Part shown: piece by piece, positions 2,623 to 24,519 of the stretch | Position numbering within the stretch: position 1 is the first letter of the stretch | How the letters are laid out: each line of letters opens with the position of its first letter | Source: a virus | Strand: one strand, 5' to 3' | Length of the DNA stretch: 25,566 nucleotides | IMG/VR virus record: IMGVR_UViG_3300021961_000573 | Location: 1 to 25,566 of that record | Made by a program: the position numbers and the translations under genes | The notes under the pieces: generated by a model | The model's database searches: none | The model's input: only the letters and a program-made list of their open reading frames with translations | What the model was told of the DNA's origin: nothing

Positions 2623-4079
2623 CAGATGTAAATTTCAAGGCAGGTGAATTCGTAGTTGAATCATTTACCTTAGTCAATCAATATGGAGATTCTATCGATC
2701 TTAGAGGATTGGTATTGAATTTTCGTCTCTACGAAAACATTTATCAAAATTTTTTAACAGGAGACATTACAGTTCTTGATGGTTTAGATATCATAAAAAA
2801 CTATCGTATGACTGGTCAAGAAAACATTCGTATATCATTTAAGTCAAAAGAAGGTCTTGGTTATGTAACAGACAAAGAATTTACCATTGATAAAACATTT
2901 AGAATTTATAAGATAATCAATGTAAGTAGAAATGGTGCAGGCATACAAACACAAACTTATCAAATGAAAATTTGTGACCCTAGACTTTTCTATGCAAGAA
3001 AACAAAGAATAAGTCAAGTGTTTAGAGGTTCATGGTCAGCAATATTACAAAATGTTCTTATCAACAAGGCAAAATTTAAGATAGAAGAATTTGATCATTT
3101 CGAAGATTCATTACGAGACAATTATCAGTTCATATGTCCAAACTGGAATGTGCAACAACTTATTAACTATTGTACAAACAATGCTCAATCTTCAAATTCA
3201 GAATCATTTAAGAGAAGTATGTTCTTTTTTCAAACGCTGAATGGTGGTTTTAGATTTAAATCTATCGAAAAAATGTTCCATGATGAATTTCCTTTGTCGT
3301 TTTCTTTTACGCCTAGAAGTAATCTTGATACACAAGAAGTACCACTGGATAGTCCTCACGGTTTAAATACTCAAATATTAAGTGTTGTAAGAAGTCAGGT
3401 CTTTGACACATTACAAGGTTTGTCAGGTGGTGCGTACTCTTCATCTATGAGTGTGTATGAACCTTATACTAAAGAAGAAACTGCAAGACAGTTTGATTTA
3501 ACTGAAGTTTTTGCAAAAAAGGAAGATCATGCATCTGGATATCCAATGGTTCATGTAGATGAAGATGAGATATGGCATAGTGCAGGTAATTTAGTGTCTT
3601 CAAGTCATTCGCCAGATATCAATCAAGTTGATGTGGACTTTCCTTTAAATAAAAGTTTCTTATCATCTAAGATATATGACTATCACATAGAACATAATTT
3701 TGATAATAGACAGTTAGACCAAGAACAACAGTTTAGAGGTCGTGATAATGATGATAACAGTAGACTTAGACGAAGAGCGCTATTAGAGACTTTACAACAA
3801 AATAGAATAACAGTTCAGATACCATTGAGAACAGATTTGTCTGTCGGTCAAATGATTAAATTAATTTTACCGCCAGCAGAATCAACTGGTAATAGACAGA
3901 TATCTGATAAACTAAACGATCATAGATATCTTATAACAGATATAATGTTAGAGGCAAGTCCAGGCGAAGGCGTAGGTGTTTTAAACTTAGAATGTGTAAA
4001 AGAAAGTTTTGCAGATAAGATTAAAGACATTAGACCATTGACTGAAGTAACGAGTGGTTCACCACATATGGATGATTAA
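2619..4079 (+). CDS. gp27: Baseplate hub protein, gp27-like
   Basis: The 486-aa product is most likely the hub protein that sits beneath the tail tube and holds the spike (T4 gp27, 391 aa; also the gpD/VgrG N-terminal fold). It opens with a strand-rich tube-like domain (VESFTLVNQYGDSIDLRGL, then FLTGDITVLDG). A mixed segment (CDPRLFYARKQRISQVFRG, then NWNVQQLINYCTNNAQSS) follows, and a long C-terminal beta region contains VQIPLRTDLSVGQMIKLILPP near residue 404, typical of hub proteins of the gpD/gp27 class. Its start overlaps gp53 by 4 nt and gp5 begins one base after its stop, matching the physical gp27-gp5 contact. T4 sequence similarity is probably low, so the name rests on fold-type motifs and order. 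Confidence 0.75.
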   Translation: MTDVNFKAGEFVVESFTLVNQYGDSIDLRGLVLNFRLYENIYQNFLTGDITVLDGLDIIKNYRMTGQENIRISFKSKEGLGYVTDKEFTIDKTFRIYKIINVSRNGAGIQTQTYQMKICDPRLFYARKQRISQVFRGSWSAILQNVLINKAKFKIEEFDHFEDSLRDNYQFICPNWNVQQLINYCTNNAQSSNSESFKRSMFFFQTLNGGFRFKSIEKMFHDEFPLSFSFTPRSNLDTQEVPLDSPHGLNTQILSVVRSQVFDTLQGLSGGAYSSSMSVYEPYTKEETARQFDLTEVFAKKEDHASGYPMVHVDEDEIWHSAGNLVSSSHSPDINQVDVDFPLNKSFLSSKIYDYHIEHNFDNRQLDQEQQFRGRDNDDNSRLRRRALLETLQQNRITVQIPLRTDLSVGQMIKLILPPAESTGNRQISDKLNDHRYLITDIMLEASPGEGVGVLNLECVKESFADKIKDIRPLTEVTSGSPHMDD

Positions 4080-4080
4080 T

Positions 4081-5064
4081 ATGGATTATTTTTATGGTAT
4101 AATCGAAGATAGAAACGATCCCCAAAAACTTGGTAGAGTTCGTGTTCGTGTCTTTGGTATTCATTCAAGTGATAAGTCTATGATTGCAACTCCAGATTTG
4201 CCATGGGCTCAAGTAATGTTACCAACAACTACGGCAAGTTTGTCAGGTTTTGGTATTCAACACGGTCTAGTTGAGGGGTCTACTGTACTTCTATTCTTTA
4301 GAGATAAAGAAACAAAACAAGATCCAGTTGTTATCGGTTCTGTTCAAGGATTCAATGTTCAAAAAAGACGAAAAGATGCAGAAGGTAATCCTTTAGGTTT
4401 TAATGATCCTAGAAGACTTACAAAAAGTGCATATGACGGCACTTTAGACGGACCAGGTTCTGCAGCTGATCGTACTAGAACATTTGGTTTAGAAGGATCG
4501 CTAGAAAAATCACCAGTTGTACCTCAAAGTATCAGTGTAGATTATACAAAAAACGGTAAATCTAAAATCACAAATCCTACACCATTAGAACAACATTTCA
4601 ACATTCCCTATTATCCGTTAAGAGAATATATCAACTCTTCAGACATATCTGGTTATGCGACAGGTGATGCAGATTACTCAGCATTACTTGATGGCCCTAC
4701 AAAAGCTTCTGGTGAATACCTTGGTCCTCATCCCAAAACAAAAGCAAAACCTGAGTACCCATACAACAAGTCATTGTTTACAGAATCAGGTCACTTAGTC
4801 GAATTAGATGATACAAGAGATAAAGAAAGAATACTTGTGTATCATAGATCAGGTACATTTACAGAGATACAGCCTGACGGTGATAGACACACTAGAGTTG
4901 TACAGAGTGATTATGAAGTTGTTTGTGGTGATAAAGAAGTTACAGTATGTGGTAATGTAAAAGTTGTTGTGAAAGGAAATGCACAAATAGATATATCTGG
5001 TACAACAGATATCACATCAGTAGGTAATCTTTCTATTATAGCACCAAATATAAGATTGAACTAA
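4081..5064 (+). CDS. gp5: Baseplate central spike protein gp5-like, without lysozyme domain
   Basis: Residues 1 to ~100 form the OB-fold domain of gp5/VgrG proteins (GIIEDRNDPQKLGRVRVRVF, then PWAQVMLPTTTA, then VEGSTVLLFFRDKETKQDPVV). The middle is a Pro/Gly-rich linker. The C-terminus is a triple-stranded beta-helix: five consecutive octads of the VxGxxxxx type at residues 281-320 (VCGDKEVT, VCGNVKVV, VKGNAQID, ISGTTDIT, SVGNLSII). The length is 327 aa against 575 in T4 because the lysozyme domain is absent. I chose ATG 4081, one base after the gp27 stop, since homologues begin right before GxxEDRNDP. Starts at 4054 or 4072 would only add residues encoded inside gp27. The product is the membrane-piercing needle at the baseplate centre. 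Confidence 0.88.
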   Translation: MDYFYGIIEDRNDPQKLGRVRVRVFGIHSSDKSMIATPDLPWAQVMLPTTTASLSGFGIQHGLVEGSTVLLFFRDKETKQDPVVIGSVQGFNVQKRRKDAEGNPLGFNDPRRLTKSAYDGTLDGPGSAADRTRTFGLEGSLEKSPVVPQSISVDYTKNGKSKITNPTPLEQHFNIPYYPLREYINSSDISGYATGDADYSALLDGPTKASGEYLGPHPKTKAKPEYPYNKSLFTESGHLVELDDTRDKERILVYHRSGTFTEIQPDGDRHTRVVQSDYEVVCGDKEVTVCGNVKVVVKGNAQIDISGTTDITSVGNLSIIAPNIRLN

Positions 5065-14579: not shown

Positions 14580-17500
14580 ATGCAGAAGACTGATTTAAAT
14601 ATCACTCCATACTATGATGATTTTAGTGAAGATAAGAACTTTCAAAAAGTATTATATAGAGCTGGTAGACCTCTTCAAGCAAGAGAGTTAACACAAACTC
14701 AATCAATACTTCAAAATCAAATAGAAAGATTTGGTAATCACTTCTTTAAAGAGGGTTCTATTATTCAAGGAGCTCAGACAGATGTTAGTATGGATTACTA
14801 CTATGTCAAAGTGTCATCTGCAAACCCTAACTCACTTGGTGATTCAAATGTAGAAACATACAGAACATCATCACATTTATCTTTTATAAGAGGTAAAACT
14901 TCAGGTGTAATTGCTCAAATCTTCGCATCATCAGCTGAAACTTCAGATGATCCACTTACACTTTTTGTGAAATACTATTCACAAGGTACAGACTCAACAA
15001 ACTCAACTTCTTTTGTAGCAAATGAAGAATTAGAATTTGTAACACTAGATTCTAATGGTAGTGCTACTGCAACTTCAAGTAATAATGAATTTTCAGTCTT
15101 AGCAAGTACAGAGACACCAAATGGTCGTGCTTCAATCGCAAACATTTCAGAAGGTGTGGTGTTCTTAAGAGGTTTCTTCTGTAAAGTAGAGGCACAACAA
15201 TTAATCTTAGAAAAATATTCTGGTAAACCATCATATAGAGTTGGTTTAAAAATAACAGAACAGATTATTACATCAGCAAATGACAGTTCACTTTTAGACA
15301 ACGCAACAGGAACAAATAACGAAAATGCTGCTGGTGCAGATAGATTAAAACTATCATTAATTCTTTCAAAATATCTTTTAACAGATACAGATGATGTAAA
15401 CTTTGTAGAGTTTGTAAGAGTTAATAATGGTACTATCGAATTATCAATTCAAAATCCAATCTACAACGAAATAGAAAACACACTTGCAAGAAGAACTTTT
15501 GATGCAAACGGTGACTTTGTTGTTAGACAATTCACTCACTCACTTAGAGAACACTTAGACGATACAATAAACAGAGGTTATTATACTTCTACAAATGGTG
15601 GTGACGAAACAAAAGTAGTCATGCAAGTATCACCAGGTAAAGCATATGTAAAAGGTTACGAAATAGAGAAGATTGGTACGACACCTATTACATTAAACAA
15701 GGCAAGAACAACAGTTTCATTAGATAATGCAAACACACCTATTAGATTAGGAAATTTTTTACGAGTAACTAATGCACACTCATTACCTGAGTTTGGTAAC
15801 GAAACAGGTACAGATGCACAAAGTCCATTTCAATATTGCAAATTATGGCCAAGTGTTATATCAAGTGCAGGTACAGAAAACTCAGAAGATCATATCGGTT
15901 TTGCAAGAGTTAGAGACATCACTTTAAATACAGGAACAGATACATCAAATGTTTATGATAATTCTTCTAAATGGGAATTATCAATGTTTGACATTAAGAT
16001 GTTTACTAAGATATCTTATTCTGGTCATTCAGGAACAGCACAAGTTGGTGATAAGATAACAGGTTCATCTTCTGGTGCAACAGGTATACTTGCATACGAT
16101 AATAATTCAAATGCCATATATTTGCACGATGTTGTAGGAAACTTTACAACTTCAGACGCTTTATCTTCTGAAGGTGCTGGTAATTTTTCAATCACTTCTG
16201 GTCAGAATACTGCAGTTAGAGACTACAACATTGATAGAGTAAGATCGATCACACAAAATCCAAAAGAGACAAGTAGAGAAACATTTACTGCTGATTTAGT
16301 AGTTGATGCAGAATTTTCACTTGCTGGTACTATTACATTTACAAATGCAAGTGCAACTGTTACAGGTTTTGGTACAAGATTTGCAGCTCAAATAAAAGAA
16401 GGCGATAAGATTTATAATCCTGGTAATTCAGAATACTTAATAGTATCATCTGTAACAAGTGATACATCTCTTACTCTTACAGGTAATGCTGGCGGTGGTT
16501 ATCAAGGTAAATCAACTAGATTTAGAACACAATTATACAACCAAGATCAAACAGCAAACATATTTGCATGGCCAAGAGACTTTGTAAAATCACATACTGC
16601 AGAATCAGTTACCATTAGAAGACAACAAGTATTAACAGTTGATGGATCTGGCACATTTACATTAAGCACAGGTTCAAACGGAACATTTGGTTCAGTTAAT
16701 ACAGATAACTTCACTCTTGCTGTTATCGAACAAAAATCTTCAGGCACACCTGATTACAGTAATGGTGATTTATTAAACATAGAAGATTTTACAATATCAG
16801 GACCTACCTCTTCAGGTACAGGTCAAACTTTAACAGTTCAAGGTTTAACCAATGACGATGGTGCAATTATTAAAGCAACATTTACTGTTACTGTAACTGA
16901 TCCTGTTAATAGATCAAAAACACTTAGACAAGGCAGATTACTCAAAGTTGGTAGTAGTAGAACTGCAGGTGGTTTTTATGGAACTGCATATAATGATTCT
17001 GAAATATCACTTGGTGTTTCGGACATTCATAAAATTCGTGCAGTTTACATGGGTACAACACCATTACCACCTAGTGCAACACTAAACAGTATCAGTGGCA
17101 CTTTCACGCTATACGAAACAGTCGTAGGACAAACTTCAGGCGCAAGAGCAACATTAATTGATTATAATGGTTCAAGTGCAACATCATATTGGTATTACAC
17201 AAACGCAGAAAAATTTGTAGATGGTGAAACAATTGTTGGTCAAACTTCATCAGCATTTTGTACAATAAGTGGTGTATCACAGGGTTCACAAAATATTGTA
17301 AGTCGTTATTTCTTTGATGATGGTCAAAGAGATGGTTACTATGATTTAGGTAAATTAATTAGAAAACCAGGCAATCCTGCACCTAATGAGCCTATTTTAA
17401 TCGTATTTGATTACTTCACATCAACAGGAAGTGGGGACTTTTATGATATCAATTCTTATGGTTCAATAGACTATGATGATATTCCTGTATATTCACCAAA

Positions 17501-20500
17501 CAAAGTCGATTTGGGTGGTTTAGAACCTGATGGCACATTTGAATTATCTGATTGTGTAGATTTTAGACCAAATGTAGGACAAATTTTAGGTACTACAACA
17601 TTCTCATCTGATACACCAGATGTATCATCACCTATTGATTTGAGTAATAGTACGAGTGGTGCAGTTTACTCACCATTCTCATATGTAGATGGTAGATCGT
17701 TCTTATCATCTAGATCAGGTATTACAGCAACAGGTGCAAATGCAGTGGACACACCAGTTAATCAATCAAGTGTCATTGGTGACATTGATTTTTATGTGAG
17801 CAGAATAGATAAAGTATATCTACATAAATCTGGTAAATTTCAAATTGCAACTGGAGACCCAGCACTTACACCAACAAAACCAAAATCAGTTGATGATTGT
17901 ATAGAACTATTTGAAGTAACAATTCCTGCTTACACAAAATCTTTAAATGACATTAAAGTAAGATCAAAGGATCATAGACGATTCACAATGTCAGACATTG
18001 GTAAGATTAATAACCGTGTAACAAACCTTGAAAGAATTACATCTCTTTCTCTTTTAGAAAAAGATGTACAAGGTAAACAAATTTTAGATGCCGATGGTTT
18101 CGATAGATTCAAATCAGGTTTCTTAGTAGATAACTTTAGAGGTCACAAAGTTGGCGATGTATTCCATCCAGATTATAATTGTAGTATTGATGGTAAGAAA
18201 GGACATTTGAGACCAAAATCATTTCAACAGTTTTTTGATGTCTCTTTAGACACTTCTACATCAAGTAATTACACAAAAACAGGTGATTTAATTACATTGC
18301 CTTATACTCAATACTCTTGGATAAATCAAAGTAAGGCATCTAGATCAATCAATGTAAACCCATATAATGTTTACGCTTTTGTTGGTAGTGTTAAACTAAC
18401 TCCTGCTACAGATATATGGCAAGACACTGAAAGATTGCCAGATGTAAGAATCAATAGAGAAGGTACCTTTGACGCTATGAAAGCGAAAAACGATATTGGT
18501 ACTGTATGGAACGATTGGCAAACAACATGGATTGGTGAACCTACAGTTACATCAACCGAAACAGTATCACAAGAAAATGGATATTGGGAAGGTGACCCAA
18601 CACAAGGTGGTCAATGGGTTGCAGGTTCAGAAACAAGAAGAGAAATTACTGAAACACCAGAGAATCAAACAAGAACTGGTATTATAACATCAGTAGTTGA
18701 AGACTTTGTAGAAACAAGAAACGATAGAACCGTTTCAGTTTCAATTGTTCCATTTATGAGAGCAAGAACAATTGAAATTGATGCAAAAGGTTTGAAACCA
18801 AGTACAAACCACTATTTCTTCTTTGATGGTATCAGAGTTGATGCATATGTAAGACCATACAGTGCAACTTACTCACAAGATGGTGGTGTAACAGTTTCAT
18901 CTGGTGTTAAAACAGATGGTAACGGTAGACTTCGTGCATACTTTGAATTACCGAATAATACATCTCAAAGTTTCCCAACAGGTTCAAGAAAATTACAAAT
19001 AACTTCAAGTTACTATGATTTACCAGCGCCTGCATCACACGGTAGTGCTATCTATCAGGCACAAGGTTTATTACAATCTAACCAAACAGAAATTACTTCT
19101 ACACGAAATGGTAGAGTTATATTTGAAGCAATATCAGATTCAAGACAAATTATTAAAACAGGTGAACAATTAAATCAATATGCTTGGGATACAAATGCAC
19201 CTGCAGTAGATCAAAATCCACCAAACAATGGTGGTGTAGATGATCCTATTGATCCACCAGATGTTGATGATCCAAATCCTAGAGATAGAGGTTCAGATCA
19301 AGAAACTCCACCATTTAGAAGAGGTAGAGGGATAGATATAGATGGTGGTTACATGGATCCCCTTGCACAATCATTTATGGTTGATGCAGCTACAGGTATT
19401 ATGTTAACATCTATTGATGTTTACTTTAGAACAAAATCAGATAGTTTACCTGTAACAGTTGAAATTAGAAACATGGTGAACGGTTATCCAGGTCAAATTA
19501 TTCTACCGTTCTCACAAACAACACTTACACCTGCTGAAGTTAATGTATCAGAAGATGGTGCAACTGCAACAACATTTACATTTGAATCGCCTGTCTTCTT
19601 AGAAGAAGGTAAAGAATACTGTTTTGTGGTTCTCTCAAATTCAAACGATTATGAAGCATTCATTTCTAGAATGGGTGAAACTGATCTTAAAACAGGACAA
19701 ACAATCTCAGGTCAACCATATGCTGGTTCACTATTCTTATCTCAGAATGCATCAACTTGGACTGCAGAACAAACAGACGATTTGAAATTTAATTTAAAAG
19801 CTGCTAAGTTTGATACTTCAAAAACATCAAATCTTGTTTTTGAAAATGATGCACTATCTTCAAGTAGATTGCAAGAAAATCCAATTCAAACATTTAGTGG
19901 TCAAACATATGTGAAAGTATTTAATTATTCACATGGTATGTACTCAACATCATCTAATGTTATATTAACACAGGTAGAGGGCGATAAAGAAGGCGTGATA
20001 TTAAACATATCTCACACTTCTTCAGGAACATTACCTGTTGCTGGTACATATTCTAGTCAGTCAACCACAGATACAGTTGGTACTGGTACAGGTTGTACAG
20101 TAGAAATTGTAATCAGTGGTACTGCTGGTAATGAAGTTATTGATAGTGTCAAAATAGAGAATGGTGGTTCAGGTTATACAACATCATCTTCATTAACAAT
20201 CACAAACTTAGGTGGCGAAACTAATACGATCACTATAGATGTAGATACAGTTGGTAACACACTAGGTGGAATACCAGTTGATGCAATTAATGCTACATAT
20301 ACTGCTATTGCAAATATTGGTATGGATTCATTTACAGTAATACCTGATCTTTCATCATATGACTTTGTATCAGGTTATTCTGCCTCATCTTCAACAATAG
20401 GTGGCGGTAGAAATGTTAGATCAACCAGAAACTATTACTTTGATGTCATTCACACTATAATACCTAATATATTATTTGCAGATACAAGAATATTCTCATC

Positions 20501-21191
20501 AATATATGGAACATATATGGATACACCAGAGGGAACAAACTTTGGTACAGTTTATAACAGACAAACAAGTTTAACAAAGATTACATTGAATGATAATTCA
20601 TTCTTAGGAAGTCCTAGAATAGTTGCATCACCCATCAATGAAACTAATGAGATGTCTTCAAAGAAATCATTTAAAATTGATTTACAGTTGAAATCTTTTA
20701 ATGCTAATGTGTCACCAATCATTGATGTTGCAACAATAGGTTGTTTAGGTATTATGAACAGATTGAATAATATAGATTCATCTAGTGATGTACCAACAGG
20801 CACAACTTATATTGCATCAACTGAACCTGATGGTGATAACAATGCATTTGTTTACTGTACTAAGAAAGTAAACCTAAAAACACCTGCAACTGCTATTAGA
20901 GTAGCTGCAGATATTTTCAGACCATCAGGAAACGAAGTTAAGTTATTATATAAAGTGTTAAAGAATGATGACAATACACCTTGGGATGATATTGGCTGGA
21001 ATTATTTTAACTCAGATGGTTCTGCAGATGTTTCAATACCTGCAGATGGCAAAAACTTTAAAGAATACGAATTTACTGCAGAAGACTTGGCAGAGTTCAG
21101 TGCATTTGCAGTTAAGATAGTAGGACAAGGAAACAATACAAGTAGAGTACCAGTGATATCTGCTTTAAGATGTATTGCACTTGCAACATAA
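14580..21191 (+). CDS. Giant DUF4815-type baseplate/virion protein (2203 aa)
   Basis: The N-terminus is the DUF4815 signature of marine T4-like virion proteins: ITPYYDDFSEDKNFQKVLYR (residues 8-27), then QARELTQTQSILQNQIERFG (residues ~33-52). Several beta modules follow: GDKITGSSSGATGIL (near 16040), a GTITFTNASATVTGFGTRF module (residues ~583-645) and ETVVGQTSGARATLI (near 17120). A conserved block with YNVYAFVGSVKLTPATDIW lies near residue 1264. An acidic Pro-rich linker at residues ~1540-1585 (DDPIDPPDVDDPNPRDRG) separates a C-terminal half opening MDPLAQSFMVDAATGIMLTSIDVYF (residue ~1592), which resembles a lectin-like jelly roll. A GGSGY segment sits at ~1862. The position after gp8 fits a peripheral wedge or pin role like T4 gp9-gp10. 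This is inferred, not proven. Confidence 0.82.
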   Translation: MQKTDLNITPYYDDFSEDKNFQKVLYRAGRPLQARELTQTQSILQNQIERFGNHFFKEGSIIQGAQTDVSMDYYYVKVSSANPNSLGDSNVETYRTSSHLSFIRGKTSGVIAQIFASSAETSDDPLTLFVKYYSQGTDSTNSTSFVANEELEFVTLDSNGSATATSSNNEFSVLASTETPNGRASIANISEGVVFLRGFFCKVEAQQLILEKYSGKPSYRVGLKITEQIITSANDSSLLDNATGTNNENAAGADRLKLSLILSKYLLTDTDDVNFVEFVRVNNGTIELSIQNPIYNEIENTLARRTFDANGDFVVRQFTHSLREHLDDTINRGYYTSTNGGDETKVVMQVSPGKAYVKGYEIEKIGTTPITLNKARTTVSLDNANTPIRLGNFLRVTNAHSLPEFGNETGTDAQSPFQYCKLWPSVISSAGTENSEDHIGFARVRDITLNTGTDTSNVYDNSSKWELSMFDIKMFTKISYSGHSGTAQVGDKITGSSSGATGILAYDNNSNAIYLHDVVGNFTTSDALSSEGAGNFSITSGQNTAVRDYNIDRVRSITQNPKETSRETFTADLVVDAEFSLAGTITFTNASATVTGFGTRFAAQIKEGDKIYNPGNSEYLIVSSVTSDTSLTLTGNAGGGYQGKSTRFRTQLYNQDQTANIFAWPRDFVKSHTAESVTIRRQQVLTVDGSGTFTLSTGSNGTFGSVNTDNFTLAVIEQKSSGTPDYSNGDLLNIEDFTISGPTSSGTGQTLTVQGLTNDDGAIIKATFTVTVTDPVNRSKTLRQGRLLKVGSSRTAGGFYGTAYNDSEISLGVSDIHKIRAVYMGTTPLPPSATLNSISGTFTLYETVVGQTSGARATLIDYNGSSATSYWYYTNAEKFVDGETIVGQTSSAFCTISGVSQGSQNIVSRYFFDDGQRDGYYDLGKLIRKPGNPAPNEPILIVFDYFTSTGSGDFYDINSYGSIDYDDIPVYSPNKVDLGGLEPDGTFELSDCVDFRPNVGQILGTTTFSSDTPDVSSPIDLSNSTSGAVYSPFSYVDGRSFLSSRSGITATGANAVDTPVNQSSVIGDIDFYVSRIDKVYLHKSGKFQIATGDPALTPTKPKSVDDCIELFEVTIPAYTKSLNDIKVRSKDHRRFTMSDIGKINNRVTNLERITSLSLLEKDVQGKQILDADGFDRFKSGFLVDNFRGHKVGDVFHPDYNCSIDGKKGHLRPKSFQQFFDVSLDTSTSSNYTKTGDLITLPYTQYSWINQSKASRSINVNPYNVYAFVGSVKLTPATDIWQDTERLPDVRINREGTFDAMKAKNDIGTVWNDWQTTWIGEPTVTSTETVSQENGYWEGDPTQGGQWVAGSETRREITETPENQTRTGIITSVVEDFVETRNDRTVSVSIVPFMRARTIEIDAKGLKPSTNHYFFFDGIRVDAYVRPYSATYSQDGGVTVSSGVKTDGNGRLRAYFELPNNTSQSFPTGSRKLQITSSYYDLPAPASHGSAIYQAQGLLQSNQTEITSTRNGRVIFEAISDSRQIIKTGEQLNQYAWDTNAPAVDQNPPNNGGVDDPIDPPDVDDPNPRDRGSDQETPPFRRGRGIDIDGGYMDPLAQSFMVDAATGIMLTSIDVYFRTKSDSLPVTVEIRNMVNGYPGQIILPFSQTTLTPAEVNVSEDGATATTFTFESPVFLEEGKEYCFVVLSNSNDYEAFISRMGETDLKTGQTISGQPYAGSLFLSQNASTWTAEQTDDLKFNLKAAKFDTSKTSNLVFENDALSSSRLQENPIQTFSGQTYVKVFNYSHGMYSTSSNVILTQVEGDKEGVILNISHTSSGTLPVAGTYSSQSTTDTVGTGTGCTVEIVISGTAGNEVIDSVKIENGGSGYTTSSSLTITNLGGETNTITIDVDTVGNTLGGIPVDAINATYTAIANIGMDSFTVIPDLSSYDFVSGYSASSSTIGGGRNVRSTRNYYFDVIHTIIPNILFADTRIFSSIYGTYMDTPEGTNFGTVYNRQTSLTKITLNDNSFLGSPRIVASPINETNEMSSKKSFKIDLQLKSFNANVSPIIDVATIGCLGIMNRLNNIDSSSDVPTGTTYIASTEPDGDNNAFVYCTKKVNLKTPATAIRVAADIFRPSGNEVKLLYKVLKNDDNTPWDDIGWNYFNSDGSADVSIPADGKNFKEYEFTAEDLAEFSAFAVKIVGQGNNTSRVPVISALRCIALAT

Positions 21192-21192
21192 T

Positions 21193-21405
21193 ATGGGTGA
21201 TTATGCAAAAGTTGATGGACATTCATCTCTAATTAGAGATAACGAATCAACTGCTGTTATTAATACAGATATAGAAGCATATTATTTAGCAAGAAAAAGA
21301 AAAGAGATGTTTAAGACTCAAATAAATGAAATAAATACACTAAAGGAAGAAGTTAACAATATTAAAAACATTCTTCTGCAACTAGTAGAGAAAATAAATG
21401 GCTAA
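21193..21405 (+). CDS. Small coiled-coil virion-associated protein (70 aa)
   Basis: The product starts MGDYAKVDGHSSLIRDNES, then a short Thr/Asn turn and a helix from residue ~30 with the heptad pattern KEMFKTQINEINTLKEEVNNIKNILLQLVEKING, a likely trimeric or dimeric coiled coil. Proteins with the VDGHxxLxRD start and coiled-coil end are common in T4-like marine phages next to fibre genes; I know no proven function. I chose ATG 21193, one base after the previous stop, over 21175, which lies inside the upstream gene. It overlaps the following gene by 8 nt, so the two are coupled. It could act as an oligomerisation adaptor or fibre chaperone (inference). Confidence 0.85.
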   Translation: MGDYAKVDGHSSLIRDNESTAVINTDIEAYYLARKRKEMFKTQINEINTLKEEVNNIKNILLQLVEKING

Positions 21406-22492
21406 GACAGTAGACAATTTCAGTACTATAGAAAACTTCAGAACGAAGTATAACGAGCTCGCTACAGATGTAGGTGATATTTCTGGTCTTAGAGATACTA
21501 TAAAAAATCAGAACGGCGGAACACTTGTTGATGCCGTTAATGCTATAGAAGATAAAGTATTTTTCTTCCAAGAATATCAGTATACTGCAACTTCAAGTCA
21601 GACTCAATTTACAGGCGATGATTTATCAGGCAATTCTCTGCAATTCAAACAAAATAGAATTCAAGTATTTAAAAACACCAATCACTTAATAGAAGATGTA
21701 GACTTTACAATTGGTACACCTTCTGGTAGTTTCTATACATCAATCACCTTAACTACAGGTGCAACCGCAGGTGATAAAATTGTAATCTACTCATTCACAG
21801 GTTCATTTGAAGGAACAGCAACAGCACAAGGTTCAGTAGGATACTTTGTAGAGTCAGCACAAAACACAATTTATAACTCAAATGATAATGGTATCATTCT
21901 AAATGGTGATAACTCAACACCAACAACTGTATTACAATCAGGTTTTACAATTCAACTTGCAGGTAAAACATATGCAGAAGATAACATAGAACTTGCAAGT
22001 GGTAAAAGTTTTGTAGGTAATATAACTGGTAATGTAACAGGTACCGTATCTAGTATTGCAAACCATGATTTAGGCGCTTTAGGTAATGTTTCTTCAACTG
22101 CAGCTTCTAATGGTCAATTGTTGATCTATAATTCTTCAACAAGTCAATGGGAACCTGATGATCAACCTGCAAACTATACTAATGAACAAGCACAAGATGC
22201 AGCTGCATCTATGATCACAAGTGCTACTCACAGTAACATCACTGTTACATATGATGATAATGCAAACACACTTTCGTTCTCTGCAGCTGCCCAATATGGT
22301 GACTCAGATGTTCAATCTTATCTTTCAGGAGGAGATGGTCTTACTTTAGGTGGTTCTGGTGAATTTAGCGTAAACACAAGTAACGGCGTAAAAATAAGTA
22401 GTGATAGTGTTGTATTAGACTATGAAACAACTAGCACTACACCCTCAAGTGTGGGATCAACAGCCACAGGTCATTTGTGGTTTGTGATTTAA
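21398..22492 (+). CDS. Tail-fibre-like structural protein (364 aa)
   Basis: The N-terminal ~60 residues are helical (NFSTIENFRTKYNELATDVG, then DAVNAIEDKVFFFQEY), a segment seen at the start of fibre-like proteins of marine myoviruses. Residues ~60-140 carry a beta module with SQTQFTGDDLSGN, IQVFKNTNHLIEDVDFTIG and AGDKIVIYSFTG. A repeat-like SFVGNITGNVTGTVSSI follows, then LGALGNVSSTAASNGQLLIYNSSTSQW (near residue 225), a shaft motif shared with the 71-aa protein at 24875. The end (STATGHLWFVI) is compact and hydrophobic. It overlaps the coiled-coil gene by 8 nt. It is probably a virion fibre or baseplate-attached shaft; receptor specificity cannot be read. Confidence 0.82.
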   Translation: MAKTVDNFSTIENFRTKYNELATDVGDISGLRDTIKNQNGGTLVDAVNAIEDKVFFFQEYQYTATSSQTQFTGDDLSGNSLQFKQNRIQVFKNTNHLIEDVDFTIGTPSGSFYTSITLTTGATAGDKIVIYSFTGSFEGTATAQGSVGYFVESAQNTIYNSNDNGIILNGDNSTPTTVLQSGFTIQLAGKTYAEDNIELASGKSFVGNITGNVTGTVSSIANHDLGALGNVSSTAASNGQLLIYNSSTSQWEPDDQPANYTNEQAQDAAASMITSATHSNITVTYDDNANTLSFSAAAQYGDSDVQSYLSGGDGLTLGGSGEFSVNTSNGVKISSDSVVLDYETTSTTPSSVGSTATGHLWFVI

Positions 22493-22508
22493 TGAAAAAT
22501 GGTGAATA

Positions 22509-23621
22509 ATGGCAGACGAAATTTATATAAACACAGGAAGCACATTTCAACAACCTTATAATGCTAGGCAACCTGCTAATGCTCAACAACCATATATAGC
22601 AAACGCTCAACAGCCTTATCCTTATATTGCTAATGCACAACAGCCATACATTGCTAATGCACAACAGCCTTATCCATATATTGCGAATGGACAGCAACCC
22701 TATATAGCAAGTGCTCAACAACCGTATCCGTATATTGCTAATGCACAACAACCGTATATTGCTAATGCACAACAACCTTATCCATATATTGCGAATGGAC
22801 AGCAACCCTATATAGCAAACGCTAGATCGCCATTTACTTATTCTAGACAGGCACAACAACCATATCCTTACATAGTAAATGCTAGATCACCGTTTACTTA
22901 TCAGGTGCCATTTATAACTCAGCAACCATACACTTTTAATGCTAGAACGCCATTTACTTATCAGGCACAGGGTCGTGTGCCTGCAAGTGCCCAACAACCA
23001 TACACCTTTAGTGCGAGAAGACCTGCAGTAGGTAGAGTACCTTACATCTATGCAGGTGATACAAGTTATATTGGTTCGAGTGGTTTAATTATAGATGATT
23101 GGGCTGAAACAAGTTCTGGATCTGTTACTTCAGTTGCTGGTGTTGTAATTTATGCTTTCTACAGTAGTGCTAGTGAAATTCAACTAAAAGCACACATTTA
23201 CTCTGCTGAGGATACTAGTTGGTACGACACTTCAAATGTGATTCAGGATCCTACTGCAGGAATTGATTTACCAACAAACAATTTATTATACAAAATAGAA
23301 GATGTTGCAAGTGGTTATACTGTTAGATTCTCTGTAAGTGGTGGCACTACAACTACAGGAGATGGTATAGCTTCTGTAACAGGTTATCCTAATAGTCCTG
23401 CAACTGCTTCCATGAGTACTGTTATAGGATCAATTTCAACAACAGTTATAAGAGGAGTTCTCTTTAGATTTTCATCTCTTGCTGGTGATGGTGAATCTAC
23501 AAGTGGTGATGCTCTATTTGATAATGTTCAATTTATTTTTGAAAAATCAGGTTCAACAACTTTTACAAAAACCTTTGATATCTTCTGTAACACTAGTGCA
23601 GATTCTTATGGAGGGCAATAG
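22509..23621 (+). CDS. Gln/Pro/Tyr repeat protein with beta-rich C-terminal domain (370 aa), putative adhesin
   Basis: I recognise no named family. After MADEIYINTGSTF, residues 14 to ~180 are repeats. Residues 26-97 are four 18-residue units, each an 8-residue QQPYIANA followed by a 10-residue QQPYPYIANA (N/S and A/G vary). Later units shift to RSPFTYSRQA and RTPFTYQAQG. The repeats contain no Cys, Trp or acidic residues. Residues ~185-370 are a Ser/Thr/Gly-rich beta domain (GLIIDDWAETSSGSV, ending TFDIFCNTSADSYGG). GGTGA lies 3 nt before the ATG. It is followed after two bases by a small gene and then a second repeat protein. The likely role is a proline-spaced fibre stalk with a C-terminal binding head; this is inference from composition and location. 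Confidence 0.85.
   Translation: MADEIYINTGSTFQQPYNARQPANAQQPYIANAQQPYPYIANAQQPYIANAQQPYPYIANGQQPYIASAQQPYPYIANAQQPYIANAQQPYPYIANGQQPYIANARSPFTYSRQAQQPYPYIVNARSPFTYQVPFITQQPYTFNARTPFTYQAQGRVPASAQQPYTFSARRPAVGRVPYIYAGDTSYIGSSGLIIDDWAETSSGSVTSVAGVVIYAFYSSASEIQLKAHIYSAEDTSWYDTSNVIQDPTAGIDLPTNNLLYKIEDVASGYTVRFSVSGGTTTTGDGIASVTGYPNSPATASMSTVIGSISTTVIRGVLFRFSSLAGDGESTSGDALFDNVQFIFEKSGSTTFTKTFDIFCNTSADSYGGQ
22584..22799 (+). repeat. Four tandem 54-bp units coding 8+10-residue QQPY repeats
   Basis: Each 54-bp unit encodes QQPYIANA plus QQPYPYIANA. Codons vary between units (CAA/CAG; CCA/CCT/CCG/CCC; GCT/GCA/GCG), so the protein pattern is better kept than the DNA. Two blocks 108 bp apart are nearly identical, pointing to one recent duplication. 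Degenerate repeats extend on both sides (about 22548-23050). Confidence 0.9.
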
Positions 23622-23623
23622 AT

Positions 23624-23872
23624 ATGGCAGTAACATTTACTATTGATAATGTAGAATTGATAAGTACAATACATACTACAAAAAATGAAGATGGTGTTGT
23701 AATAAACACTTTTGAAAAGGATAAAACCTCTGCAACGGTAACTTTTACAGATGGTACTAATTCTGTTACTAGAACTTATAGTATTCGTTCTGGTTATGAA
23801 GATTCTGATAATTTCAATGAAAGATTACAAACTATTGCAAGTTTTTTAGAAACAGAGGTGTGGAGTAGTTAG
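23624..23872 (+). CDS. Small unknown protein between two repeat-protein genes (82 aa)
   Basis: I do not recognise this product. MAVTFTIDNVELISTIHTTK and SATVTFTDGTNSVTRTYSIR are amphipathic beta strands, and the C-terminus (DNFNERLQTIASFLETEVWSS) is a likely amphipathic helix. It has no signal peptide, Cys or metal motif. The upstream stop is overlapped by a good ribosome site (GGAGGG, about 23611), and the spacing is two bases on either side, so it is co-translated with both repeat proteins. It could be a small structural partner or an assembly factor for them; nothing in the sequence decides. Confidence 0.8.
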   Translation: MAVTFTIDNVELISTIHTTKNEDGVVINTFEKDKTSATVTFTDGTNSVTRTYSIRSGYEDSDNFNERLQTIASFLETEVWSS

Positions 23873-23874
23873 AG

Positions 23875-24519
23875 ATGCCTACAGGTCAACAACCATATAT
23901 CTATCAACAACCTTACATTGCTCAAGGAACAACTCCTATTATTGTTCAGCAACCATATCCTTATATTGCAGATGCTAGACAACCCTATATTGCTCAAGGT
24001 AGAACACCAACATCTGCTAGATATCCTGCTGATGGACAACAACCCTTTACTTTTCAGGCACAAGGTCAGACACCTTATCCGTATATTGCAGATGCTCAAC
24101 AACCATTCACCTATAATGCGAGATCACCATTCACATATACAAGACAAGGTCGAACACCTTTCACATATCAAAACAGACAACCGTTCACTTATGCTACACA
24201 AGGTAGAACACCATTTACCTATCAAAATAGATCACCTTTCACATATGCAACACAAGGTAGAACACCATTTACCTATTCAAATAGAGCACCGTTTACTTAT
24301 GCTAGACAAGGTCAAACACCTTTTACATATCAGAACAGGCAACCTTTCACATATCAAAATCCTTACATTGCAACCAGACCAATAGGTCCACTTGCAAAGG
24401 TTAAAGGCGTATATGTAAACCAAGGTGGGTCTGTAGTACAAGTTGATGAAATCTATGTCAATAATTCTGGTACAATAGAAAAAATACATCAACATCCATC
24501 TCAACCGTTTGACACCTAA
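23875..24519 (+). CDS. Second Gln/Arg/Pro/Tyr/Phe repeat protein (214 aa)
   Basis: Residues 5 to ~92 are mixed QQPY, RQPY and GxTP repeats (QQPYPYIADA, RQPYIAQG). Residues 93 to ~164 are four regular 18-residue units of the form RTPFTYQNRQPFTYATQG, again 8+10 residues as in the upstream gene. The C-terminal ~45 residues change character: LAKVKGVYVNQGGSVVQVDEIYVNNSGTIEKIH, two copies of an EIYVNxxGT-like element that also opens the 22509 product (DEIYINTGST). The repeats are rich in Arg, Thr and aromatics and free of Cys and Trp. No enzyme motif is seen. It probably forms an extended shaft or coat linked to the virion through the C-terminal element. The function is inferred. Confidence 0.85.
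   Translation: MPTGQQPYIYQQPYIAQGTTPIIVQQPYPYIADARQPYIAQGRTPTSARYPADGQQPFTFQAQGQTPYPYIADAQQPFTYNARSPFTYTRQGRTPFTYQNRQPFTYATQGRTPFTYQNRSPFTYATQGRTPFTYSNRAPFTYARQGQTPFTYQNRQPFTYQNPYIATRPIGPLAKVKGVYVNQGGSVVQVDEIYVNNSGTIEKIHQHPSQPFDT
24151..24366 (+). repeat. Four tandem 54-bp units coding 8+10-residue xxPFTY repeats
   Basis: The units encode RTPFTYQN plus RQPFTYATQG with changes at the second position (Q/S/A) and near the end. The DNA of the units is very similar, for example two exact copies of ACACAAGGTAGAACACCATT, about 54 bp apart, which indicates expansion more recent than in most of the 22584 array. Confidence 0.88.

Follow-up and report, generated by a model that had tools for sequence, protein, structure and literature searches.

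The window analyzed here, 25,566 nucleotides from an uncultured T4-type ocean virus, has a tail-fibre gene region in which two genes encode repeat proteins, P1 and P3. These probably represent a modular tail-fibre or adhesin pair that combines a dyad beta shaft with an exchangeable tip and belongs to a T4-like marine phage. The pair probably helps the virus attach to its host. P1 (type D, 370 aa; 22509..23621, plus strand) is the first protein of the pair and P3 (type C, 214 aa; 23875..24519, plus strand) the second; between them lies P2 (82 aa; 23624..23872, plus strand), an optional small gene. The three ORFs and the 2-nt gaps separating them were exactly as described in the initial annotation of this DNA.

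P1 starts with MADEIYINTGST (aa 1–12; 22509..22544, plus strand), a signature nearly invariant among type D proteins (alignment A2) and presumed to be the virion anchor. It is followed by the dyad repeat of about 173 residues (aa 13–185; 22545..23063, plus strand; delimited by parity counts) and by a C-terminal non-repeat domain of ∼185 aa (aa 186–370; 23064..23618, plus strand; sequence comparison and model), presumed to be the tip. This domain, missing from the initial annotation, contains W198, W238, and C360, so that the absence of Cys and Trp stated there applies to P3 and to the repeat parts of both proteins but not to P1 as a whole. The dyad repeat of P3 comprises about 164 residues (aa 4–167; 23884..24375, plus strand; parity counts) and is followed by the 47-residue C-tail RPIGPLAKVKGVYVNQGGSVVQVDEIYVNNSGTIEKIHQHPSQPFDT (aa 168–214; 24376..24516, plus strand), which alignment, AlphaFold2, and dN/dS set apart from the repeat as the best-conserved stretch of type C. 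The tail was modeled as hairpin-like; when compared with PHROGs, it matched phrog_13729 alone (E 2e-3), a family of unknown function. On the minus strand, antisense ORFs lie opposite the repeats (22437–22859, 140 aa; 23869–24102, 77 aa); they are a mechanical result of the repeat codons, and any sign of real genes is absent.

In both proteins the repeat consists of units of 4, 6, 8, or 10 residues, [QR]xP[YF...], with even spacing of proline, as the repeat is defined. The 18-residue (8 + 10) superperiod noticed at the outset was real: lag-18 identity was 0.445 for P1 and 0.417 for P3, about twice the best shuffled value (maxima of 0.227 and 0.226, respectively, in 2000 shuffles, taking the largest value over lags 8, 10, 18, and 36). 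However, it is merely one phrase among the possible combinations of units. Pro–Pro spacings were even in 25 of 25 cases in P1 and in 22 of 23 (aa 6–160), or 22 of 24, in P3, and all Tyr/Phe residues (29/29 in P1; 31/31 in P3, aa 6–160) were on the face opposite proline. The same was observed family-wide, where 3783 of 3861 Pro–Pro spacings (98%) were even compared with 47% in shuffles (115 non-redundant members), spacings of 8 (1790) and 6 (1131) being followed by those of 2 (407), 10 (336), and 4 (101). With the phase fixed by proline across each whole repeat region, 4437 Tyr/Phe residues were opposite proline and 44 on its parity (99% on one parity); Ile was mostly on the proline side (1180 versus 68). 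The order of the units was non-random, a unit of 10 being followed by one of 8, and units of 6 occurring within 8-6-6 or 4-6-8 phrases; steps from 6 to 10 and from 10 to 6 occurred at only 0.14 and 0.09 of expectation.

A beta strand alternates every two residues, whereas a polyproline helix has a period of three. Both a proline-spaced beta and a polyproline shaft had been considered in the initial annotation; even spacing and two-residue alternation favor the former and clash with the latter, and a polyproline-II or collagen-like shaft (GXY or PPII) was rejected on the basis of the parity and of the low lag-3 identity (0.02 in P1, 0.06 in P3). Judged by this pattern, the repeats would form an extended amphipathic beta fibre, the dyad being that of a beta strand. 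In some members (L053, L130, L068, L065, and L146) the repeat is written in a dialect that has QEPNIR units, which is found in both cassettes of some genomes. The repeat dialects of the two pairs of one genome were slightly closer to each other than those of different genomes (cosine 0.415 versus 0.341; permutation p 0.003, with kinship uncontrolled).

Repeat searches of viral contigs, as suggested initially, assigned P1 and P3 to one widespread family of about 115 non-redundant members at about 145 viral-contig loci (68 loci matched by P3, and 76 loci matched by P1 that were kept from 191 matched stretches); some of the 115 non-redundant repeat ORFs collected are truncated at their ends by contig borders. 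By their ends they were sorted into four types: type A with the N-terminal domain KVKTPTGW...QGAWVKTG...QIYVKTPTGWN, type B with the C-terminal RWDxxLxQxWPATPVxS, type C (P3) with the tail KVKGVYVN...EIYVN...EKIHQ, and type D (P1) with MxDEIYINTG. No model of Pfam, PHROGs, or NCBIfam matched P1 or P3 above its cut-off (P1 had no hit at all), no solved homolog was present among PDB sequences, and no convincing match was obtained in cultured phages, which agrees with the earlier view that the proteins are outside the known fibre and adhesin families. Kinship with the “c-type lectin” of Salmonella phage SEN22 was rejected (SAATNTG repeat, another frame, a non-fibre gene); Pseudomonas YA3 and other weak hits were set aside (weak similarity, non-fibre regions). 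The repeat peptides did not occur in the literature searched either. As far as databases and literature were searched, the repeat, its parity code, the paired genes, and their Hint ends are undescribed. The family probably constitutes widespread fibre shafts with exchangeable ends, and there is a real chance that the repeat adopts a new fold.

The family members occur in pairs of fixed order: in the non-redundant cases that could be scored, A was followed by B 41 times out of 41 and D by C 10 times out of 10; in five further cases the next repeat gene was too incomplete for typing, and one contig from a genome collection (L155) had the reverse order, B–A. Moreover, single-chain fusions were found for D + C (L053, L130) and for A + B (L069, L156), which indicates that the partners of a pair work together. 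The common fold proposed for P1 and P3 in the initial annotation is backed by these D + C fusions, the same parity grammar, and membership in one family.

In one T4-like clade, a D–C pair and an A–B pair border the tail-fibre cluster, the gene order being VrlC – 76 aa – fibre-like – [D – (small) – C] – L-shaped-fibre-assembly homolog – 71 aa – four to five fibre-like genes – [A – (small) – B] – glycosyltransferase-like – 188 aa – 2OG-Fe(II) oxygenase – ... – gp13 – gp14 – gp15. Both pairs were present in nine of nine contigs assembled from two loci. Profile searches of the window revealed a T4-like module of head-closure, tube-cap, wedge, and hub homologs, gp8, and VrlC/DUF4815, followed by fibre-like genes. 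The VrlC/DUF4815 virion protein (14580..21191, plus strand; profile match and synteny) is a conserved neighbor and places the P1–P3 cassette in the T4-like baseplate/fibre module. Conserved within the clade, too, are the fibre-like gene 5′ of P1 (364 aa; 21398..22492, plus strand; synteny) and the 110-aa gene 3′ of P3 (24538..24870, plus strand), annotated as “L-shaped tail fiber protein assembly” (phrog_3304, E 6e-24). The gene layout of the clade contigs thus supports the location in a tail-fibre region given earlier. Elsewhere in the window (4054–5064), a 336-aa protein of the hub/lysozyme family (phrog_430) is far shorter than the 868-position family profile.

In L031 (8729–13186), the gene directly 3′ of A–B is glycosyltransferase-like, and two genes for 2OG-Fe(II) oxygenases come next; about 97 loci have this arrangement at the corresponding position. 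The products of these neighbors might glycosylate or hydroxylate the repeats; 2OG-Fe(II) oxygenases also occur near the fibres of phages lacking the repeat, e.g., HTVC008M. Regarding the host, the cyanophage marker psbA was absent from nine long, possibly partial, contigs. A search of genome contigs yielded two family matches in metagenome-assembled genomes labeled Sphingobacteriales and Flavobacteriales (L155, 7420–9215, order B–A; L156, 4811–5947, A + B fusion). These may be a host clue or mis-binned phage contigs; since phage contigs are easily mis-binned, the labels are too weak for a host call.

Modular tips as such are already known from phage fibres. In the family, the first protein ends in one of three ways: with a globular domain, with a short tail rich in Gly, or with a Hint domain. 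The globular end FNPTGGDFTIKFIK was found on both a D (L011) and an A protein (L062), which argues that ends move between pairs. Hint domains were detected in 12 typed members plus L060 and L155 (for example, in the genes at L031 6730–7992, L112 374–2053, L012 6268–7953, L060 2–952, and L155 8001–9215). They are marked by a Cys after poly-Gly (GGGGC-F), by [TS]xxHP, and mostly by a C-terminal HN; a second group has a C-terminal HLVDS. Hint, Vint, and intein models of Pfam (below curated cut-offs) and intein_Nterm of NCBIfam matched them, and the L112 domain aligned over its whole length with PDB 6tmm/6y75 (E 9e-5). From these motifs, the Hint ends are predicted to be self-processing domains. 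The catalytic-site motifs are also those of the BIL/Hedgehog-type Hint, which differs from the family's ends in that the latter, with an activity that is putative, are joined to a repeat protein of a phage. Neither P1 nor P3 contains a Hint domain (Cys1, TxxH, HN), but the A protein of the nearest relative (L031) does. The D protein of L012 carries a globular and a Hint domain together, which shows the position that a Hint domain would take in a P1-type protein.

The presence of an intervening small gene is also associated with the kind of end in A–B pairs, where one was present in 11 of 11 cases with a globular A end and in 0 of 28 others (Hint ends, 0/11; short tails, 0/17), the cases being related by descent. 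The small genes of A–B pairs belong to several dissimilar sequence groups, and homology between them and P2 was not detected (hhalign probability 0.5%). Among D–C pairs, two of 10 globular D proteins, those of the window and its nearest relative, have a small gene, whereas it is absent beside the other eight. As P2 has a relative in the nearest contig only, the three-gene cassette first described reduces to a conserved P1–P3 pair with P2 as an optional, lineage-specific insert. An assignment of P2 as a Gp77-like fibre-tail adaptor was rejected, because its E-value of 0.02 in the profile search fails the cut-off. Small genes beside variable fibre ends have been described as tail-fibre chaperones or caps in Alteromonas phages (PMC7289586, PMC10579305); in the present family, the association is strict in A–B pairs only. 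P2 is presumed, though weakly, to be a cognate chaperone, cap, or partner of the P1 tip. A chaperone role is weakened by the eight globular D proteins lacking a small gene and by the unrelatedness of P2 to the A–B small genes; given the tie of small genes to globular ends in A–B pairs, the preferred reading of P2 is that of an optional partner of the tip.

With the nearest contig (L073) as the reference, dN/dS was 0.04 for the P1 repeat, 0.12 for the P3 repeat, 0.05 for the P3 tail, and 0.38 for the P1 end domain. By these estimates, both repeats are under strong purifying selection and the P1 end domain under looser constraint; that the latter differs between relatives is seen from dN/dS and the comparison with one relative. 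Since codons were diverse inside identical peptide units, the repeat did not arise by a recent expansion of DNA. The P1 repeat's high dS and low dN may be due in part to gene conversion among its units. AlphaFold2, run on one P3 chain together with 20 related sequences, returned a mean pLDDT of 37.5, with ∼32 for the repeat and without secondary structure there. Disorder alone was thus predicted for the repeat, an outcome named initially as speaking against an attachment system, in a single-chain run that cannot probe an obligate oligomer. As AlphaFold2 gives the repeat no fold, its fold is unproven. The P1 end domain was modeled as all-beta at low confidence (pLDDT 38), which is probably its nature, and a fold search with this model found no structural relative below E 0.001.

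Among the closest known systems is gp127 of the Synechococcus phage S-SCSM1 (YP_010669938.1; L151 8641–9906), annotated as “short tail fiber” and, like the window, from a T4-like marine phage. It has an RQPRNFR/APFNFR repeat in which 25 of 26 Pro spacings (those up to 20 residues) are even, but this repeat is Arg-rich and inserted between two halves of a collar-type fibre domain. A type A member matched gp127 weakly (E 9e-3), and the likeness reflects either remote kinship or convergence. An isolated phage carries the same code in one of its fibre genes. In the published virion proteome of S-SCSM1, 45 proteins are listed, but gp127 is not mentioned in the main text (PMC9602691). Among cultured phages, Pelagibacter phage HTVC008M matches best at gp8 (40% identity); it has the window's order of wedge, gp8, VrlC, a virion protein of 73 aa, and an L-shaped-fibre-assembly homolog, but includes nothing P1–P3-like between those genes. 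A phage shaft built from an even-length short repeat, VxGxxxxx, is the C-terminal triple-stranded beta-helix of T4 gp5 (PMC4576200). It has no sequence similarity to P1 and P3 and differs in motif and in unit-length variation; its octad was absent from the repeat-unit tables of the family.

The main rival explanation sees the repeats as disordered linkers, sticky or elastic in the manner of gluten or mussel foot proteins, i.e., a flexible tether or sticky brush, with binding left to the end domain. The disorder-like output of AlphaFold2, the low complexity of the repeats with their high content of Gln, Pro, Tyr, and Ala, and the varying repeat number would all fit. Yet a disordered linker has no need to keep a two-residue phase over hundreds of residues, nor does it account for the non-random order of units or for a dN/dS as low as that of the P1 repeat, and a sticky tether, being less compatible with parity and selection data, is considered unlikely. 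As to the glutenins and mussel foot proteins to which the repeats had been likened, the resemblance is in composition alone and was not supported; neither is known to have a strict dyad.

An amyloid- or silk-like decoration, in which cross-beta stacks form between many virion or cell-surface copies and the Hint domain of the A partner releases or links subunits, would make use of the amphipathic dyad and of the Hint domains with their catalytic-site motifs. P1 and P3 themselves lack Hint, however, and their location among fibre genes of the single-copy type suits a defined fibre better, which makes such a decoration improbable. Even less credit is given to a role outside the virion, as intracellular scaffold or host-modifying proteins with a fortuitous late-region location, for every contig that spans the region has both pairs inside the conserved fibre block, with fibre-like genes on either side. 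A bolder extension of the fibre reading, put forward only tentatively, is a new class of two-protein fibre shafts in which evenly spaced prolines set the register of the 4/6/8/10-residue units, and in which the first partner bears interchangeable ends, among them Hedgehog-like self-cleaving Hint domains that might link the fibre covalently (Gly–Cys thioester) to another molecule.

The repeats and their parity, the conserved pairing and gene order, the fusions, the exchangeable ends, and the contrast in selection were observed directly; for the modular tail-fibre or adhesin pair, we infer a beta fold, an oligomeric state, a virion location, receptor binding, and the role of P2. P1 and P3 would be co-encoded subunits of one appendage, their repeats adopting an amphipathic beta structure with a Tyr/Phe/Ala face and a Pro/Gln/Arg/Thr/Asn/Ile face. 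The shaft would form by oligomerization, or by P1 pairing with P3, and its length could be adjusted via repeat number. Fixation to the virion might be provided by the short N-terminal segment of P1 or by the hairpin tail of P3. The C-terminal domain of P1 would be the exchangeable, faster-evolving tip, probably binding the host surface, perhaps with P2 as its folding chaperone or cap.

Host recognition by the abundant uncultured T4-like phages of the sea is mostly unknown, and the family offers a searchable signature for unannotated probable fibre genes, namely, evenly spaced proline, Tyr/Phe on one parity, and paired genes. If the partner Hint domains are active, they would represent hedgehog-like self-processing in phage fibres, of which no case was found in the literature searched. 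If the dyad shaft is true, it would give fibres a new fold that follows a simple code in the sequence and is usable in the design of protein fibres, and the exchangeable tip modules may mark host range.
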